From an uncultured Clostridia bacterium (GTDB taxonomy: Bacteria > Bacillota_I > Bacilli_A > RF39 > UBA660), in contig CAOJDZ010000001.1 of assembly GCA_948433815.1 (NCBI GenBank), positions 1 to 16,457 on the forward strand: a DNA stretch of 16,457 nucleotides, written 5' to 3'. The notes under the pieces are model-generated. The model did no database searches. It was not told the origin of the DNA and worked only from the letters and a program-made list of their open reading frames with translations. The position numbers were made by a program, and so were the translations under genes. Each line of letters starts with the position of its first letter. Positions within the stretch are counted from its first letter, which is position 1. Below, one piece after another: positions 669 to 7,243 of this stretch.

Positions 669-1664
669 ATGATAAAAGTAGCAATTAACGGTTTTGGAAG
701 AATAGGAAGATGCGCACTAAGACAAATAAGTGAGAAAGATGACATTGAAGTAGTCGCAATAAATGATTTAACAGACTCGCTTACCCTAGCCTATCTTTAT
801 AAATATGATTCAGTCCATAGAACACTAGATAAAAAAGTTGGATATGAAGACGATAAAATAGAAGTAAATGGAAAAGAAATAACAGTTTTACAAGAAAGTG
901 ACCCTAGTAAACTACCATGGAAAGAATTAGAAGTTGATGTGGTTTTAGAATGTACAGGAGTATTCACATCAAAAGAAAAATGTGAAGCTCATATAAAAGC
1001 CGGTGCCAAAAGAGTAATAATAAGTGCTCCAGCAAAAGACGATGCTAAAACTGTAGTATTTGGAGTTAACGAAAATATCTTAACAAGTAAAGACAAAATA
1101 ATCAGCGCCGCTTCATGTACTACAAACTGTCTAGCCCCAGTATTAAACCTTTTACATAAAAATTACAATGTAATAAGTGGATTTATGACTACAGTACACG
1201 CTATCACAAATGACCAAGAAACTTTAGACATACCTCATAAAAAAGGAATAGAAAGTAGACGTGGAAGAGCCGCTTCATTAAATATAATTCCTACATCCAC
1301 AGGAGCCGCTTCACAAATAGGAAAAGTTATCCCAGAATTAAAAGGAAAATTAGATGGTCTAGCATACAGAGTACCTGTAGGAGATGGTTCACTTATTGAT
1401 TTAACTGTACTTGTAGAAAAAGAAACAACTGTTGATAAAGTAAACAAATTATTTAAAGATAATCAAAGTGATAAAATAAAAATAGTAAATGTTCCTCTAG
1501 TAAGTAGTGATATTATTGGAACTACAAACGGTGCTATAGTAGATTCTCTTCTAACTAAAGTAATAAAAGAAGATGGAAAAACTTTAATAAAAGTATCAGC
1601 TTGGTATGATAATGAATGGGGTTACACAGCACAAATGATAAGAACTTTAGAAAGCTGGAAATAA
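669..1664 (+). CDS. gap: Glyceraldehyde-3-phosphate dehydrogenase, NAD type
   Basis: This cytoplasmic glycolytic enzyme oxidises glyceraldehyde 3-phosphate to 1,3-bisphosphoglycerate with NAD. It is 331 residues, the normal length. The Rossmann motif NGFGRIGR is at residues 7-14. Acidic Asp33 in AINDL suits NAD rather than NADP. The catalytic site SCTTNC has the nucleophile at Cys150, and the general base is His177 in TTVHAITND, where Ile replaces the usual Tyr. The C-terminal SWYDNEWGY is intact apart from an Ala (SAWYDNEWGY). An AAAGGAGG ribosome binding site overlaps the preceding stop codon and fixes the ATG. It is cotranscribed with the nucleoside kinase and followed at once by a strong terminator, so it is cut off transcriptionally from pgk. 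Confidence 0.98.
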   Translation: MIKVAINGFGRIGRCALRQISEKDDIEVVAINDLTDSLTLAYLYKYDSVHRTLDKKVGYEDDKIEVNGKEITVLQESDPSKLPWKELEVDVVLECTGVFTSKEKCEAHIKAGAKRVIISAPAKDDAKTVVFGVNENILTSKDKIISAASCTTNCLAPVLNLLHKNYNVISGFMTTVHAITNDQETLDIPHKKGIESRRGRAASLNIIPTSTGAASQIGKVIPELKGKLDGLAYRVPVGDGSLIDLTVLVEKETTVDKVNKLFKDNQSDKIKIVNVPLVSSDIIGTTNGAIVDSLLTKVIKEDGKTLIKVSAWYDNEWGYTAQMIRTLESWK

Positions 1665-1670
1665 AATGTA

Positions 1671-1700
1671 AAGATAAGTGTTAAAACTTATCTTTTTTCT
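1671..1700 (+). terminator. Rho-independent terminator after gap
   Basis: A perfect 9-bp stem (AAGATAAGT at 1671-1679 with ACTTATCTT at 1686-1694) has a 6-base loop and runs into six consecutive T. It lies seven bases after the gap stop and separates gap from pgk. Confidence 0.88.
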
Positions 1701-1718
1701 ATTTAAAAATAAATATCT

Positions 1719-1740
1719 TGATATAATAATTATAAGGTGG
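1719..1740 (+). promoter_or_regulatory. Extended -10 promoter and RBS of pgk-tpiA
   Basis: TG at 1719-1720, one base, then TATAAT at 1722-1727 form a consensus extended -10. There is no good -35. The predicted start is near 1734, which is where the AAGGTGG ribosome binding site (1734-1740) begins, so the leader would be only about 13 nt. Confidence 0.65.
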
Positions 1741-1746
1741 ATAAAT

Positions 1747-2880
1747 ATGAAAACAATAAAAAATTTAGATATAAAAAGAAAAAAAGTTATAATAAGAGTC
1801 GATTATAACGTTCCAATTAAAGATGGAAAAGTTATAGATAATAATAGAATAGTAAGTAGTCTAGAAACAATTAACTACTGTATAAATGAAAATGCAAAAA
1901 TAATTTTAATGACTCATTTAGGTAAAGTAAAAACAGAAGAAGATAAAAATAAAAACACACTTTTACCAGTAAAAGAAGAATTAGAAAAATTACTAAATAA
2001 AAGCATTTTCTTTTCTCATGAATTAAAAGGAAAAGATCTAGAAGATAAAATAAATAATCTACAAGAACAAGATATTCTTTTATTAGAAAATACAAGGCAT
2101 ATGGATTATCCAGAAAAATTAGAAAGTAATAAAGACGTAGAATTATCAAAATACTGGGCATCTTTAGGAGACGTTTTCATACTAGATGCATTCGGTAGTG
2201 CTCACCGCGCACATGCTTCAACATATGGAATAAGCGAGTATTTGCCACACGCTATTGGATTCTTAATAGAAAAAGAAATAAAAGAATTAGATAATATAAA
2301 AGATAAAAAGAAAACTATAATACTAGGTGGTGCTAAAGTAAGTGATAAAATAGGTGTCATTAAAAACTTAATAAATAGAACAGAAAAAATACTTATAGGT
2401 GGCGCTATGTGTGGAACATTTCTAAAATCTTTAGGCTATGAAATAGGAAAAACTTATGTAGAAAATGAAAAAATAGATGAAGTAAAAGAATTAATAAACA
2501 CTGGAAAAATAATTTTACCTATTGATGCTATCACAGAAAACGGAACAAAATTAATAGAAAATATAACTAAAGATGAAACTATTTTTGATATAGGTCCTGC
2601 TACTCTATCACGCTTTAAAAATGCACTAAATAAAACTGAATTAATTCTTATGAACGGTACAATGGGAATGTGGGAAGAAAGCAAATATTCAAAAGGAACA
2701 GAAGAATTATTTAATTATCTAAGTGAAATAGATGCAAAAGTTATAGTATGTGGAGGAGACACAGGAAGTGCTTCAAAATTTTATAATTTTAAACCATACT
2801 ATCTATCAACAGGTGGAGGAGCATCTTTAGAATATCTTGAAGGTAAAAGTTTACCTGCACTAGAAATAATGGAGGATTAA
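1747..2880 (+). CDS. pgk: Phosphoglycerate kinase
   Basis: This enzyme transfers phosphate from 1,3-bisphosphoglycerate to ADP in glycolysis. The ATG at 1747 is chosen because AAGGTGG lies six bases upstream. An in-frame GTG at 1678 would place the start inside the gap terminator. The protein is 377 residues, a little short for the family. Landmarks are RVDYNVP (17-23), MTHLGK (55-60), LLLENTR (111-117), DAFGSAHRAHAST (147-159), GGAKVSDKIG (194-203) and STGGGASLEYLEGK (354-367). Several near-invariant motifs are altered: RVDYNVP for RVDFNVP, THLGK for SHLGR, NGTMG for NGPMG (303-307), and CGGDTGSA for the usual GGGD(S/T)xxA nucleotide loop. Those with a known role keep chemically similar residues. 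Its TAA directly abuts the tpiA ATG, so the two genes form a tight operon. Confidence 0.97.
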   Translation: MKTIKNLDIKRKKVIIRVDYNVPIKDGKVIDNNRIVSSLETINYCINENAKIILMTHLGKVKTEEDKNKNTLLPVKEELEKLLNKSIFFSHELKGKDLEDKINNLQEQDILLLENTRHMDYPEKLESNKDVELSKYWASLGDVFILDAFGSAHRAHASTYGISEYLPHAIGFLIEKEIKELDNIKDKKKTIILGGAKVSDKIGVIKNLINRTEKILIGGAMCGTFLKSLGYEIGKTYVENEKIDEVKELINTGKIILPIDAITENGTKLIENITKDETIFDIGPATLSRFKNALNKTELILMNGTMGMWEESKYSKGTEELFNYLSEIDAKVIVCGGDTGSASKFYNFKPYYLSTGGGASLEYLEGKSLPALEIMED

Positions 2881-3573
2881 ATGAAGACACTAATACTCAA
2901 TCATAAAAGTTATATGAGTTATGAAGAAATAACAAAATATAAAGATAAATTAAATAAATTACCAATTAGTAATATTGATTTAGTTCTATTTCCTAATATT
3001 GCCTATTTATCTCTTTTTAAAAATACTAAAATAAAAATAGGAAGTCAAAACTTTTATAGTTATAACTTTGGTTCATACACAGGAGAAATAAGTTTGGAAA
3101 CTTTAAAAAGCCTAGATATTAATCATACTCTTCTAGGTCATCCAGAAAGATTAACACTTAAATTAGATACTTATGCACAAATAAAAGATAAATTATTCAG
3201 AAGTCTAAACTCAGGATTTAAAACAATTCTATGCTTAGGACATGATGAAAACATAAAAATGTTAAAAAAAGAATTAAAATTTTTCTTTAAAGGAATTGAA
3301 CATTCATCATTAAAAAATCTTATAATTGCTTTTGAACCATCAAGCAAAATTGAAGGCGACTATGTAGATTTATATGAAATAGAATATATAAGAAATCTTG
3401 TAAAATCTTATATGAATAAAGAGTTTGATTTAGAAGTACCTTTCCTTTATGGTGGTTCAGTAAATAAAGAGAATATTGACGACATATTAAAACTAACAGA
3501 CGGAGTTATACTAGGAAAAACAAGTACAGACATAAATATAGTTAAAGAAATAATATCAATTATAAATAAATAG
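2881..3573 (+). CDS. tpiA: Triosephosphate isomerase, divergent and short
   Basis: This enzyme interconverts dihydroxyacetone phosphate and glyceraldehyde 3-phosphate. At 230 residues it is about 20 shorter than usual. The catalytic set is present: Lys9 in LNHKS, His87 and Glu89 in LLGHPER, and Glu152 in AFEPSS. GSQN (54-57), GSYTGEIS (64-71) and YGGSV (190-194) also match the family. The mobile loop 6, normally EPVWAIGTG, reads E-P-S-S-K-I-E-G and has lost the usual Trp and hinge. The C-terminal phosphate-binding region reads DGVILGKTS instead of DGxLVGGAS. The start is fixed by GGAGG at 2871-2875 within the last pgk codons. The stop codon lies inside the downstream terminator stem. Its position after pgk supports the assignment. 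Whether the altered lid keeps full activity is unknown. Confidence 0.9.
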   Translation: MKTLILNHKSYMSYEEITKYKDKLNKLPISNIDLVLFPNIAYLSLFKNTKIKIGSQNFYSYNFGSYTGEISLETLKSLDINHTLLGHPERLTLKLDTYAQIKDKLFRSLNSGFKTILCLGHDENIKMLKKELKFFFKGIEHSSLKNLIIAFEPSSKIEGDYVDLYEIEYIRNLVKSYMNKEFDLEVPFLYGGSVNKENIDDILKLTDGVILGKTSTDINIVKEIISIINK

Positions 3574-3585
3574 TTGATATTTTTT
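3552..3585 (+). terminator. Terminator overlapping the tpiA stop codon
   Basis: A 12-bp stem with one G.T pair (3552-3563 with 3570-3581) and a 6-base loop is followed by T at 3580-3585. The left arm is the last tpiA codons and the TAG stop lies in the right arm. Confidence 0.8.
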
Positions 3586-3610
3586 AGATATTTAGTAAAA
3601 TAAAAGCAAA

Positions 3611-3692
3611 TATAATCTTATTGTGTAGAAAGGATACATTTGTGAATAATTTAAAAGACATAGAAATAGAAACCTTAAGAGGTAATAAATAA
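3611..3692 (+). other. 16-codon ORF with its own promoter and RBS signals; gene remnant or leader peptide
   Basis: TATAAT at 3611-3616, GAAAGGA at 3628-3634 and a GTG start at 3642 precede a 16-codon frame (MNNLKDIEIETLRGNK) ending with TAA at 3690-3692. The spacing of these signals matches that of real genes here. No function is recognised. Either it is the surviving 5' end of a gene lost when the KilA-N segment arrived, or a short leader peptide. The 96 bases from its stop to the KilA-N start show no further frame or convincing promoter. Confidence 0.3.
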
Positions 3693-3788
3693 CTAGATGT
3701 CATGATTTTTATAACAATATGGTAACTCACTACGATATTGGAGTTTCTATATCAGTACATAAAAGATTATACGAGAGGTAGTGATGAA

Positions 3789-4601
3789 ATGATAGAATTA
3801 AAAGTTGACAATCAAATAATTAATTATACAAGGATAAATAATGAGGACTACATTTCTATTACTGATATGCTTAAAACAAAAGATGGGGATTTCTTTATAT
3901 CTGATTGGTTAAGAAATAGAAATACTATTGAGTTTCTGGGTATTTGGGAAGAACTTCATAACCCTAATTTTAATTATGGCGAATTCGCCATAATTAAAAG
4001 TCAAGCAGGTCTTAATAGTTATAAAATTAGTGTTAAAGAATGGGTAAAAAAAACAAATGCTCTAGGTATTATGTCAAAAGCTGGAAGATATGGTGGAACT
4101 TATGCACATAAAGACATAGCATTTGAATTTGGAATGTGGATTAGCCCAAAATTTAAATTATTATTAATTAAAGAGTTTGAAAGATTAAAACAAGAGGAAC
4201 AAAAACAATTAGGATGGAATGCTAAAAGAGAATTATCTAAAATTAATTATAGAATTCATACTAATGCTATTAAAGAAAATTTAATACCTAAAGAATTAAC
4301 AAAAGAAGAAATAAATTATATTTATGCAGAAGAAGCAGATGTCCTAAATATGGCTTTATTTGGTATGACTTCAAAAAAATGGAAAGAGAGAAACTTAGAT
4401 AAAAAAGGAAATATAAGAGATTATGCTTCTATAGACGAACTTATATGTTTAGCAAATCTAGAAAATTTAAATGCAGTGTTTATAAGCTATGGATTTTCTC
4501 AAGCAAATAGACTTGAAAGATTAAATAAAATTGCTATCTCTCAAATGAAGATATTATCTGAAAGCAATAATAAATATTTAGAAAATAAAATTTATAATTA
4601 A
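3789..4601 (+). CDS. KilA-N domain DNA-binding protein, solitary
   Basis: The protein is 270 residues. The KilA-N domain spans roughly residues 13-135, with ISITDML near the start, FISDWLRNRNTIEFLGIWE (36-54), QAGLNS (72-77) and the family block KAGRYGGTYAHKDIAFEF (97-114) followed by WISPKFKLLLIKEFERLK. A C-terminal helical region (140-270) has no motif I can name. KilA-N proteins are DNA-binding proteins found mainly in phages and large DNA viruses and also as lone chromosomal copies. The ATG at 3789 follows GAGAGGT (3773-3779) with a 9-base gap. An in-frame TTG at 3738 is less likely. No integrase, transposase or other phage gene is adjacent, and it sits between tpiA and spo0A, which suggests acquisition. 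Residues 60-71 are encoded by a perfect 32-bp palindrome. Confidence 0.88.
   Translation: MIELKVDNQIINYTRINNEDYISITDMLKTKDGDFFISDWLRNRNTIEFLGIWEELHNPNFNYGEFAIIKSQAGLNSYKISVKEWVKKTNALGIMSKAGRYGGTYAHKDIAFEFGMWISPKFKLLLIKEFERLKQEEQKQLGWNAKRELSKINYRIHTNAIKENLIPKELTKEEINYIYAEEADVLNMALFGMTSKKWKERNLDKKGNIRDYASIDELICLANLENLNAVFISYGFSQANRLERLNKIAISQMKILSESNNKYLENKIYN
3968..3999. repeat. Perfect 32-bp palindrome inside the KilA-N gene
   Basis: The two 16-base arms, 3968-3983 and 3984-3999, are exact reverse complements with no loop. The centre is GGCGAATTCGCC, unusually GC-rich for this window, flanked by ATTAT/ATAAT and TTTTA/TAAAA. It is read in frame as part of the KilA-N domain. No other inverted repeat of this length was noticed in the window. 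Confidence 0.95.
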
Positions 4602-4799
4602 TTATGTAATTGATAACTGCAACTGACGCTACATCAATAAGTAATATAGGTATATTTCCAAAAAATCTTTATTTTAAACTGAAAAAGTAAAATTATTTTT
4701 TTACTAAATGGAAAAATAAAACTAAATATAAATAGAATCATAAATCTTACCATAAAAAATTTCCAAAAAATAACTGAAAATAACAAAAAATAAAACCTA
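4602..4799. other. Non-coding stretch between KilA-N and the Spo0A-box array
   Basis: No supported gene is present. It contains a 13-bp direct repeat, ATTTCCAAAAAAT, at 4654-4666 and 4759-4771, each followed within about 15 bases by an AACTGAAAA-like string. A 7-bp hairpin (4686-4692 with 4699-4705) has a T tract only when read on the minus strand, where no gene would need it. No clear terminator for the KilA-N gene was found. Confidence 0.5.
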
Positions 4800-4847
4800 T
4801 TCGACATTTAACGACAAAAATCGACAATTATAGACAAAAGTAGAACA
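4800..4847 (+). promoter_or_regulatory. Tandem Spo0A-box array upstream of spo0A
   Basis: The known Spo0A box is TGTCGAA, reverse complement TTCGACA. In that orientation there are TTCGACA at 4800-4806 (exact), AACGACA at 4810-4816, ATCGACA at 4820-4826 and ATAGACA at 4830-4836. The step is exactly 10 bp. A degenerate fifth copy, TAGAACA, is at 4841-4847. Spo0A is known to bind paired boxes at about this spacing on one face of the helix. The array ends just upstream of the candidate -10 elements, suggesting autoregulation. Confidence 0.8.
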
Positions 4848-4866
4848 TTTTAACACAGTGATTAAA

Positions 4867-4886
4867 TATAATGTCTATATTATAAT
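4867..4886 (+). promoter_or_regulatory. Candidate -10 elements of spo0A
   Basis: Two TATAAT hexamers occur, at 4867-4872 and 4881-4886. Neither has a recognisable -35 at 16-18 bp nor the extended TG, which fits a promoter that needs an activator. AAGGAG at 4901-4906 is the ribosome binding site. Which -10 is used cannot be decided here. Confidence 0.45.
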
Positions 4887-4915
4887 ATTTTTGTAAGAAT
4901 AAGGAGAATAATAAT

Positions 4916-5680
4916 ATGAAGAAAAAGATTATGATAGTTGATGATAACAAAGCTATGGTAGAAATGTTAAATGAATACTTTAGTAATAATGCACAAATTG
5001 AAGTAGTTGAAACCGCTTATGATGGAGAAGAAGCATGGACAAAAATTGAAGAGAAACATAACGATATTGATGTAGTTTTATTAGATTTAATCATGCCTCG
5101 TAAAGATGGACTTTATGTTTTAGAAAAAATTAGAGAAACAAAAATGAGATTAAATGTAATAGTCGTTACAAGTTATAATGAACAAGAAACTATAAGAAAT
5201 ATAAGTGAATTTGGAGTTAAATATTTTGTATTAAAACCTTTTGACTTAAAAGAACTAGAAAAAAGAATAATAGATATAACAACTTCAAAACTAAAAGAAA
5301 ATAAAATATTAAATTTGCATGATAACAATGTTCAAATATTAATAACTAAAATACTTCATGAATTAGGAATACCATCTCACATAAAAGGTTACACATATAT
5401 AAGAGATGCGATTAATTTAGTTTATGATAATCCTTCACTTATAGGCGGAATCACAAAAGAACTATATCCTAGCATAGGATCAAAATACGATACTAGTGTA
5501 ACAAGAGTTGAAAGAGCAATTAGGCACGCTATTGAAGTTAGTTGGAACAGAGGTGACTGGAGTTTGATGGAAGAAATATTCGGACACAGTGTAGATATAG
5601 ATAAAGCTAAACCAACTAACTCAGAATTTATAGTAACAATCGCTGATAAATTAAGACTTGAGATGCTTAAAGTAAGCTAA
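4916..5680 (+). CDS. spo0A: Sporulation master regulator Spo0A (response regulator)
   Basis: This phosphorelay-controlled transcription factor is 254 residues. The receiver domain (1-125) has acidic pocket Asp9/Asp10, phospho-acceptor Asp57 in LLDLIMP, Thr85 and Lys107 in VLKPFD. The DNA-binding effector domain (about 138-252) is strongly Spo0A-like: LHELGIPSHIKGY (147-159), SRVERAIRHAIEV-type recognition region at 195-208 (here TRVERAIRHAIEV), and KPTNSEF (232-238). All key residues are retained, so it should be functional. The ATG follows AAGGAG with nine bases between. A tandem box array upstream suggests control by its own product. Its neighbours are glycolytic genes and a KilA-N gene, with no sporulation gene in view, so whether the organism sporulates cannot be said. 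Confidence 0.97.
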   Translation: MKKKIMIVDDNKAMVEMLNEYFSNNAQIEVVETAYDGEEAWTKIEEKHNDIDVVLLDLIMPRKDGLYVLEKIRETKMRLNVIVVTSYNEQETIRNISEFGVKYFVLKPFDLKELEKRIIDITTSKLKENKILNLHDNNVQILITKILHELGIPSHIKGYTYIRDAINLVYDNPSLIGGITKELYPSIGSKYDTSVTRVERAIRHAIEVSWNRGDWSLMEEIFGHSVDIDKAKPTNSEFIVTIADKLRLEMLKVS

Positions 5681-5687
5681 CTCTTTT
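5665..5687 (+). terminator. Weak terminator candidate at the spo0A 3' end
   Basis: A 5-bp stem (GCTTA 5665-5669, TAAGC 5673-5677) with a 3-base loop overlaps the last spo0A codons and is followed nearby by CTCTTTT. The stem is short, so this is tentative. Confidence 0.3.
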
Positions 5688-5703
5688 AAATAAAAAATAA
5701 ATA

Positions 5704-5724
5704 TGCTAGAATATACCTAGGTGA
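5704..5724 (+). promoter_or_regulatory. Extended -10 promoter and RBS of gpmI
   Basis: TG at 5704-5705, one base, then TAGAAT at 5707-5712. The ribosome binding site AGGTGA is at 5719-5724, so the predicted leader is about 12 nt. Confidence 0.55.
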
Positions 5725-5731
5725 AACAAAA

Positions 5732-7243
5732 ATGAAAAAAGTAATATTACTCATTTTGGACGGTTTTGGAATAAGTAACAATGAATATGGAAATGCTGTA
5801 AAAGAAGCAAATACTCCAGTAATCGACAAACTAATGTCGTTTTTTCCTCATACTCTACTTGAAGCAAGCGGAACAGAAGTAGGCTTGCCAAAAGGACAAA
5901 TGGGAAATAGTGAAGTTGGACATATGACTATAGGAAGTGGAAGAGTTAACCCTCAACCTCTTACATATATAAATGAAAAAATAAAAACAAAAGAATTCTT
6001 TGACAATGATGTTTTAGACAAAATGATAGAATACGTAAAAGAAAAAGGAAGCACACTTCATTTAGTCGGACTATTATCTAATGGAGGAGTTCACTCAAGT
6101 GCAAATCACTTTTATGCAGCACTCGCTATGGCGAAACTAAAAAAAGTCAAAAGAGTATGTTTTCATTTTATAACTGATGGAAGAGACACTTCTCCTACAA
6201 GTGGTGCCAACTTTGTTATAGATTTCATGGAAAGAGCCAAAAAATTAAACCTAGGAGAACTAGCAACCATAAGTGGAAGATATTATGCAATGGACAGAGA
6301 CAACCGTTGGGAAAGAATAAAAAAAGTTTATGACGCTATGGTATATGGAGTTGGAAATGAATTTCCAAGATATGAAACTTGTTTCAAAGAACACTATAAA
6401 AGAGATATAACGGATGAATTTATAAATCCTAGTATAATAACAAAAGGAAAAGAAATAAAAGATGGAGATGCAGTTCTTTTCATAAATTTTAGACCTGAAA
6501 GAATGAAAGAACTAATAGAAACATTTACTAATAAAAACTTTAAAATGTTCAAAACTAAACAATTTGAAAATCTAAAATTAGTATCATTATTTAACATACA
6601 TGAAGATGTAGAATATGCATTTGATACTGAAAAACCTGTAGAAACTTTTGGAGAATATATTGATGGTTTAGATTTTACTCAAGCAAGAATTGCCGAAACA
6701 GAAAAATACGCGCATGTAACATATTTCTTTGACGGCATGAAAGACTTAAATAGTAATAAATGTGAAAAAATCTTAATACCTAGTCCACAAGTTCCAACTT
6801 ACGATATGAAACCTGAAATGAGTGTTGGTGAAGTAACTGAAACTGTATTAAAATCATTAGAAAATGACTATGACTTTATGCTTATAAACTTCGCAAATCC
6901 TGATATGGTTGGCCACACAGGAAATTTAGAGGCTACAAAAACAGCAATTGAAATATGCGACTTCTGTTTAGGTAAAATATTTGAAAGTGCTAAAGAACAC
7001 TTCTATGAACTTATAATAACCGCAGACCATGGAAATGCAGAAAAAATGTTAAATAAAGAAGGAGAACCTGTGACTAGTCACACAACAAGTAAAGTTCCAT
7101 TTATAATTTGCAATACAGATTATAAACTAAAAAGTGAAGGGTCCCTAAAAGATATAATACCAACTATAATAGACATTTATGAAATAAAAAAACCAGGCAA
7201 AATGACTGGAGAAAGTTTAATAATTAAAGAAGAAAAAATCTAA
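5732..7243 (+). CDS. gpmI: Cofactor-independent phosphoglycerate mutase
   Basis: This enzyme interconverts 3- and 2-phosphoglycerate through a phosphoserine intermediate with two bound metal ions, and belongs to the alkaline phosphatase superfamily. It is 503 residues, normal for the family. Asp10 in LDGFG binds metal. Ser60 in GQMGNSEVGH is the catalytic serine. Asp391 and His395 in NPDMVGH, Asp432 and His433 in TADHGNAE, and His450 in SHTT complete the metal set. ITDGRDTSP and NFRPERM are substrate-site hallmarks. It starts 51 bases after spo0A with its own extended -10 and AGGTGA ribosome binding site. Its TAA overlaps the stop of the convergent XRE gene by three bases, and its last codons form one arm of the shared terminator. 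Confidence 0.98.
   Translation: MKKVILLILDGFGISNNEYGNAVKEANTPVIDKLMSFFPHTLLEASGTEVGLPKGQMGNSEVGHMTIGSGRVNPQPLTYINEKIKTKEFFDNDVLDKMIEYVKEKGSTLHLVGLLSNGGVHSSANHFYAALAMAKLKKVKRVCFHFITDGRDTSPTSGANFVIDFMERAKKLNLGELATISGRYYAMDRDNRWERIKKVYDAMVYGVGNEFPRYETCFKEHYKRDITDEFINPSIITKGKEIKDGDAVLFINFRPERMKELIETFTNKNFKMFKTKQFENLKLVSLFNIHEDVEYAFDTEKPVETFGEYIDGLDFTQARIAETEKYAHVTYFFDGMKDLNSNKCEKILIPSPQVPTYDMKPEMSVGEVTETVLKSLENDYDFMLINFANPDMVGHTGNLEATKTAIEICDFCLGKIFESAKEHFYELIITADHGNAEKMLNKEGEPVTSHTTSKVPFIICNTDYKLKSEGSLKDIIPTIIDIYEIKKPGKMTGESLIIKEEKI

Follow-up and report, generated by a model that had tools for sequence, protein, structure and literature searches.

The question raised by the stretch of DNA analysed here (the window, 16,457 nucleotides in full) is whether a row of short repeats directly before spo0A serves Spo0A in the control of its own gene and, if so, in which direction. 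The matter reaches beyond one locus: in Bacillus subtilis it is debated whether spo0A's own promoter makes the sporulation decision switch-like, and a recent model describes boxes that are spread out and mainly repressive. The window comes from a 0.9-Mb metagenome assembly with a completeness of 76%, whose near relatives are uncultured Bacilli, many of them from rabbit and ruminant guts. The host family includes the MAG UBA660 (two of our records, L073 and G217, are one contig by sequence) and so corresponds to GTDB family UBA660 in the order RF39. In the available text of PMC10868615, spore formation is predicted for RF39, with different regulation. Of 60 genomes searched with profiles, 42 had SpoIVA_ATPase above its cut-off (8/9 in the genus of the window), and the sigF model found homologues in all 60, none above its cut-off. 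Spore formation in the host lineage seems likely.

The features between the start of the array and the end of spo0A are listed below; repeat units are scored by how many of the bases contacted by Spo0A they retain (G2, C4 and G5 of TGTCGAA, according to the available text of PMC3485338).

4800..4806, + strand: predicted Spo0A box 1, TTCGACA, exact reverse complement of the 0A box TGTCGAA; 3/3 contacted bases
4810..4816, + strand: predicted Spo0A box 2, AACGACA; 3/3 contacted bases
4820..4826, + strand: predicted Spo0A box 3, ATCGACA; 3/3 contacted bases
4830..4836, + strand: predicted Spo0A box 4, ATAGACA, weaker; 2/3 contacted bases
4840..4846, + strand: unit 5, GTAGAAC, degenerate, on the 10-bp register; 1/3 contacted bases
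4854..4859, + strand: place of the family's CTCTAG-type element, degraded to CACAGT in the window
4867..4872, + strand: TATAAT, candidate -10 of an upstream promoter (centre of box 5 near -36, of box 4 near -46)
4881..4886, + strand: TATAAT, candidate -10 of a downstream, family-wide promoter (box centres near -60 to -90)
4901..4906, + strand: ribosome-binding site AAGGAG, found by eye
4916..5680, + strand: spo0A, 254 aa, receiver domain and Spo0A_C

A preliminary description of this DNA had reported four heptamers ending in GACA, starting at 4800, 4810, 4820 and 4830 in the same orientation, one of them the reverse of the classical Spo0A box. All four are there as described, and box 1 matches the core of a 0A box (TGTCGAA or TTCGACA) exactly, being its reverse complement. 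The extent given for the array, 4800..4847, also covers a fifth unit that had been left unnamed. This unit continues the single orientation and the exact 10-bp register of the other four, and by itself would not qualify as a 0A box. From the distal to the proximal end, the contacted-base score runs 3-3-3-2-1, and a single change at a contacted base is reported to cost the Spo0A of Clostridioides difficile about tenfold in affinity (PMC3485338, available text). The run of four is the longest that GACA forms at period 10 in the window. Shuffling the window 2000 times with its dinucleotides preserved, and scoring both strands, gave a longest such run of one in 1668 cases and of two in 332, never more, which rules out an artefact of chance or composition. 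On the + strand of the window, no other tetramer composed of three or more different letters forms a run of four at periods 5 to 30.

The gene after the array is a genuine spo0A. Its product matches PF08769 (Spo0A_C; E 5.8e-40) and the PF00072 receiver domain, and passes the NCBIfam equivalog model TIGR02875 (spore_0_A) with 277.3 bits for a cut-off of 200. Residues 137-249 align to PDB entries 1fc3 and 1lq1 (SPO0A / Stage 0 sporulation protein A), the latter a DNA complex, and the stretch RVERAIRHAIEV is identical in the window protein and in these chains. The genome that carries the array thus also encodes a Spo0A with a conserved DNA-reading helix.

Is the array maintained in related species? 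Full-length Spo0A is found in eight of the nine genus genomes, the window's own included; the ninth (G006, 82% complete) gave only a weak receiver-type match. We compared seven non-redundant promoters, one contig (G004) being cut and a repeat of another (G007). Five of the seven have the exact run of four GACA words and the other two keep three of the four, with TACA replacing box 4 in L005 and box 1 in L007. Pairwise identity among the seven is 0.883 over the array, with 0.964 in the GACA cores, 0.937 in the 3-bp linkers and 0.734 in the three leading bases; it is 0.693 from unit 5 to the CTCTAG element and 0.374 in the 50 bp upstream of the array. The gradient is conserved as well. Box 1 keeps GACA in six promoters, box 2 keeps GACA in all seven and its three contacted bases in six, and box 3 keeps all three contacted bases in every promoter. 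Box 4 has two contacted bases in six promoters and one in L005, and its third base is never C; unit 5 has one in four promoters and two in three, with a conserved TAGA part. Units 4 and 5 accordingly score 1 or 2 in all seven, and this conserved weakness of the promoter-proximal units is what a cooperatively spreading occupancy would need. Boxes and spacing are both conserved in the upstream regions of spo0A across relatives, so that the idea of a Spo0A-box array passes the comparison to which the preliminary description had tied it.

The wider family was sampled through 110 spo0A loci (L001-L030 and L038-L117). Removal of truncated or duplicate contigs (L004, L039, L040, L073 and L113) and of 12 exact duplicates left 93 promoters, seven in the genus and 86 outside it; a quick FastTree of 92 Spo0A proteins, with L030 left out, was used for grouping only, and the counts that follow are not independent because the species share ancestry. 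In the 86 promoters outside the genus, same-strand GACA pairs are spaced by 10 bp 39 times, by 20 bp 16 times and by 30 bp 11 times, for an expectation of about 0.1 per distance in single-base shuffles; the reversed word ACAG gave none. The 10-bp register is not absolute, because some pairs have other spacings, 9 bp in six cases and 18 bp in four; another eight are spaced by 35-44 bp. Exact TTCGACA occurs in the last 170 nt upstream of spo0A in 68 of the 93 promoters and TGTCGAA in none, and single-box promoters without phased tracts also retain TTCGACA. The presence of 0A boxes near the spo0A promoter is thus kept in relatives.

Long rows have a narrower distribution. The longest phased run in the 86 promoters is one box in 48, two in 37 and three in a single case; when gaps in the lattice are allowed, 20 of 92 promoters have at least three boxes, five of these with four. 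One or two phased boxes are typical of the family (48 + 37 of 86), which argues against a need for four; general function does not require them. Among 15 spo0A promoters obtained by a phylum-wide search, 13 of which belong to other families, the runs were zero in nine, one in five and two in one, and the array is therefore a trait of this lineage. Of the 386 family genomes sampled, 16 contain an exact run of four boxes (19 rows, vs 3 rows in 2 genomes for the reversed control). Ten of the 16 carry the run before spo0A (G000, G001, G005, G007, G358, G457, G503, G429, G477 and G563), the last with five boxes. These ten span six genera; several of the genera other than that of the window have a common layout downstream and possibly form a single lineage, so the genera cannot be counted as six origins. 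Elsewhere, the run precedes comK in G496, has a kinase-like ORF on one side and a BRO-like ORF on the other in G448, and occurs in repeats near phage-like ORFs in G378 and G360. Four-box arrays in the TGTCG orientation (G011 and G323; L258:1500-2051 and L271:1500-2048) are followed by a gene for a small secreted protein and then one for a membrane protein, a pair that had no Pfam or NCBIfam match where searched and is possibly Spo0A-controlled and bacteriocin-like.

If the repeats are Spo0A sites, they might also mark other genes of its regulon. The word CGACA-N5-CGACA occurs in 27 rows in the nine genus genomes, vs 2 for the reversed control. These rows represent 20 distinct places, which precede spo0A (7), a sensor histidine kinase (6, one of them probable as it lies at a contig end), comK (3), sirA (1) and rpsU (1); the remaining two lie inside coding sequence, leuS- and rbgA-like by eye, and look like chance. 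Domain searches confirmed the tested examples (HisKA/HATPase, ComK with PF06338, and S21) as well as SirA (PF10747; 34 bits, cut-off 26). Of the matching genomes, we examined 30 of 44 for comK and all of those for sirA (15) and for the kinase (14, E <=1e-40). Exact TTCGACA lies at most 140 nt upstream of 14/14 kinase, 9/15 sirA and 15/30 comK genes, with 0.35% expected from the flanking background (10 TTCGACA in 385,556 strand-bases), figures in which the upstream windows hinge on the automatic choice of start codons and for which binomial tails, by assuming independence, overstate the case. Phased runs of three precede comK in four genus genomes and the kinase in one, and in two cases the comK box has the opposite orientation. 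In the genome of the window itself, a comK homologue flanked by dnaN-like and recF-like genes is preceded by three phased boxes (L118:3256-3780). Counted between the final G of the box word and a TATNNT-like hexamer, the gap is 11 bp in 11 and 21 bp in 13 of the 14 kinase promoters and 21 bp in 11 of 12 sirA promoters, with a broader spread for comK (n=25), which peaks at 11 bp (7), 21 bp (4) and 31 bp (8). In B. subtilis, sirA is a target of Spo0A. So is comK (PMC3297582, available text). The same boxes thus stand before orthologues of known Spo0A targets, as members of one regulon would have them. With a genuine Spo0A gene, a conserved lattice and a box shared with other targets, the identification of the repeats as Spo0A boxes holds up well, and 4800-4846 is very probably a Spo0A autoregulatory array in front of spo0A.

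What such an array might do depends on the promoters that follow it. The preliminary description had placed it just upstream of -10 elements that lack a -35; two TATAAT indeed follow, and a consensus scan pairs neither (4867, 4881) with a -35. The same scan shows TCGACA at 4801 to be -35-like, and between 3500 and 5000 it gives 8 promoter-like matches, under the shuffle mean of 12.7. Upstream of spo0A we saw by eye no sigmaH-like -35/-10 pair, and both -10 candidates are TATAAT; no 0A box overlaps either of them, so the arrangement of the B. subtilis Ps type is absent. The first TATAAT stands 30 bp past the last [GT]ACA in 7/7 genus promoters and in 4/4 of a group formed by L043, L044, L047 and L048, and elsewhere among the 93 promoters only in L023. 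Its history is not simple, because L049 and L057, which group with the genus in the quick tree and keep the phased boxes, are without it. The gap from GACA to TATAAT is 43 bp in 33 and 44 bp in 28 of the 93 promoters.

Between box and TATAAT, 53 of the 93 promoters have the motif CT[CAG]T[AG][GTC] exactly 17 bp past [GT]ACA, the window being an exception, and the distance from this CTCTAG-type element to TATAAT is 20 bp in 28 and 21 bp in 26 of the 93. CTAGA, often ten bases past the box, is the commonest 5-mer at the place of unit 5 (17 of the 53 element-bearing family promoters). A dyad, CTAG-N9-RCTCTAG, has nine distinct places in 38 genomes (control 1); six of them precede spo0A, and the dyad therefore seems specific to spo0A, which disfavours its being the site of a general regulator. 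The element could be a degenerate -10 (18 bp past the box), the site of a second factor or a polymerase contact. A different downstream layout is seen in L027-L029, L259, L260, L262 and L268, where CTAGTATTNTGTC, the box word inverted, stands between the phased boxes and TATAAT.

We favour the view, with a probability of roughly 60%, that the array is a head-to-tail operator for Spo0A~P, which would be filled cooperatively and activate spo0A, giving a steep positive autoregulation. One unit per 10 bp would put all units on one face of the helix. Spo0A~P would bind the strong distal boxes 1-3 first, and side-to-side contacts would then carry it to boxes 4 and 5, weak sites that would fill only at higher concentration. 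Once filled, these two would place Spo0A near the -35 region of the TATAAT at 4867 (centres at about -46 and -36), and Spo0A would also be placed upstream of the TATAAT at 4881 (about -60 to -90), where it could activate sigmaA-type transcription from promoters without a -35. Spo0A-activated sigmaA promoters of the spoIIG type have boxes at or above the -35 region and no well placed -35; the window appears to resemble them in this general layout. Cooperative filling of the array is plausible, and the maintenance of the row in related species suggests a cooperative switch of self-control. The conserved 3-bp linkers (0.937), together with A-runs, could add an effect of curvature.

The serious rival to activation is negative or mixed autoregulation: Spo0A, bound to the same boxes, would mainly repress spo0A or put a brake on it, and the boxes would overlap the stretch that RNA polymerase contacts. 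It is a possibility, though a rather doubtful one: units 4-5 do extend to the -35 region of the TATAAT at 4867, the TCGACA at 4801 resembles a -35, and the boxes of B. subtilis spo0A are reported to be mainly repressive (PMC12090719, available text), but the absence of a -35 for either TATAAT favours the need for an activator, and the boxes lie upstream of both hexamers, not on or after them. A further question is whether the repeats belong to Spo0A at all. Direct repeats about 10-11 bp apart are used by PhoP. That regulators other than Spo0A use such spacing (PMC4832192, available text), that many GACA words are followed by A-runs and that the linkers are as conserved as the cores (0.937 vs 0.964) would fit the site of another response regulator, or a bend or UP element made of phased A-tracts. 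Yet box 1 is an exact 0A box, the recognition stretch of Spo0A is unchanged, the same word precedes comK and sirA (orthologues of known Spo0A targets) and the sensor kinase, and TTCGACA persists in single-box promoters that have no phased tracts, all of which makes a reading without Spo0A very unlikely.

The repeats might also have arisen by slippage or small duplications, with only one or two boxes that matter and the rest neutral, as the runs of one or two in 85 of the 86 promoters outside the genus would allow. This we consider very improbable, given that the array has an identity of 0.88 in the genus vs 0.37 in the decayed upstream flank, which disfavours an unconstrained slippage repeat, that the boxes are no copies of a single unit, as leading bases and linkers vary within the array but agree between species at the same place, and that exact four-box runs before spo0A recur in six genera.

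How does activation through a phased array compare with known systems? The spo0A gene of B. subtilis also has four boxes (0A1-0A4), reported in the available text of PMC12090719 to be saturated early; there, Spo0A~P binding was fitted with N = 4, i.e. four molecules per box, and the in vitro part needed no interaction term between boxes, while attraction between occupied boxes is reported in the same study. The two loci are alike in having four Spo0A~P sites near two promoters and in autoregulation, each of these being predicted in the window. They differ in general layout: in B. subtilis, the vegetative sigmaA promoter has three of the boxes downstream of it, and the remaining one overlaps the sigmaH -10 (PMC12090719, available text), whereas the window has a single head-to-tail 10-bp lattice upstream of two TATAAT. 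The comK promoter of B. subtilis has five putative sites (A1-A3 and R1-R2; PMC3297582, available text). The figure of one or two boxes that the preliminary description gave as usual for known Spo0A promoters is thus too low, and the rarity of four boxes loses its force as an argument. In both B. subtilis and the genus, comK has several putative Spo0A sites, which have separate activating and repressing roles in the former (PMC3297582, available text) and form one phased row of three in four genomes of the latter. The spo0A gene of C. difficile resembles that of the window in having a 0A box upstream; in C. difficile the binding has high affinity and gives several shifted species that suggest more than one site. 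It differs in having one consensus box, at -75 from the start, with no phased array described in the available text (PMC3485338).

What appears new is the compact graded lattice, together with its recurrence at spo0A; Spo0A boxes, promoters with several of them, autoregulation and the control of comK were known before. In the literature covered, which leaves out most subscription journals and was available in part, we found neither a phased four-box array nor Spo0A sites in this lineage, and no description of a rigid lattice, of a strong-to-weak gradient or of a fixed-distance CTCTAG-type element. The rows before different genes differ in length: up to four boxes at spo0A (five in G563), three at comK, mostly two at the kinase and mostly one at sirA. 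As a tentative idea, which we think may well be wrong, the number and strength of boxes on the 10-bp lattice could be a code that sets the threshold and steepness of each Spo0A target; a filament would grow from the strong distal boxes onto the conserved weak proximal ones to reach the polymerase, and the longest rows would have evolved repeatedly at the feedback gene, spo0A itself. A compact graded array with relatives that have one to five boxes at spo0A would make the effects of box number, strength and helical phase directly testable. It also gives a first view of the Spo0A wiring (spo0A, kinase, sirA and comK) in uncultured gut Bacilli with reduced genomes.

The gene neighbourhood has features of its own. 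By reading and domain search, spo0A lies within a glycolytic cluster in the window (669-7243), in the order gapA, pgk, tpi, spo0A and gpmI. Of the 110 spo0A loci, 87 have a tpi match upstream, on the same strand, and 27 have gpmI immediately downstream, counts in which some flanks are cut and some loci duplicate. A KilA-N gene (PF04383; window 3738-4601) separates tpi from spo0A in the window, alone among the 110 loci; in the same gap, L039 has ORF6N, L041 has AAA_14/DUF4143 and L099 has, by eye, a TnpB-like ORF. The gap between tpi and spo0A, just ahead of the array, is a hot spot for insertions. Two genomes, G009 and G036, and related records (L013, L024, L076 and L080) have a tandem pair of Spo0A genes.
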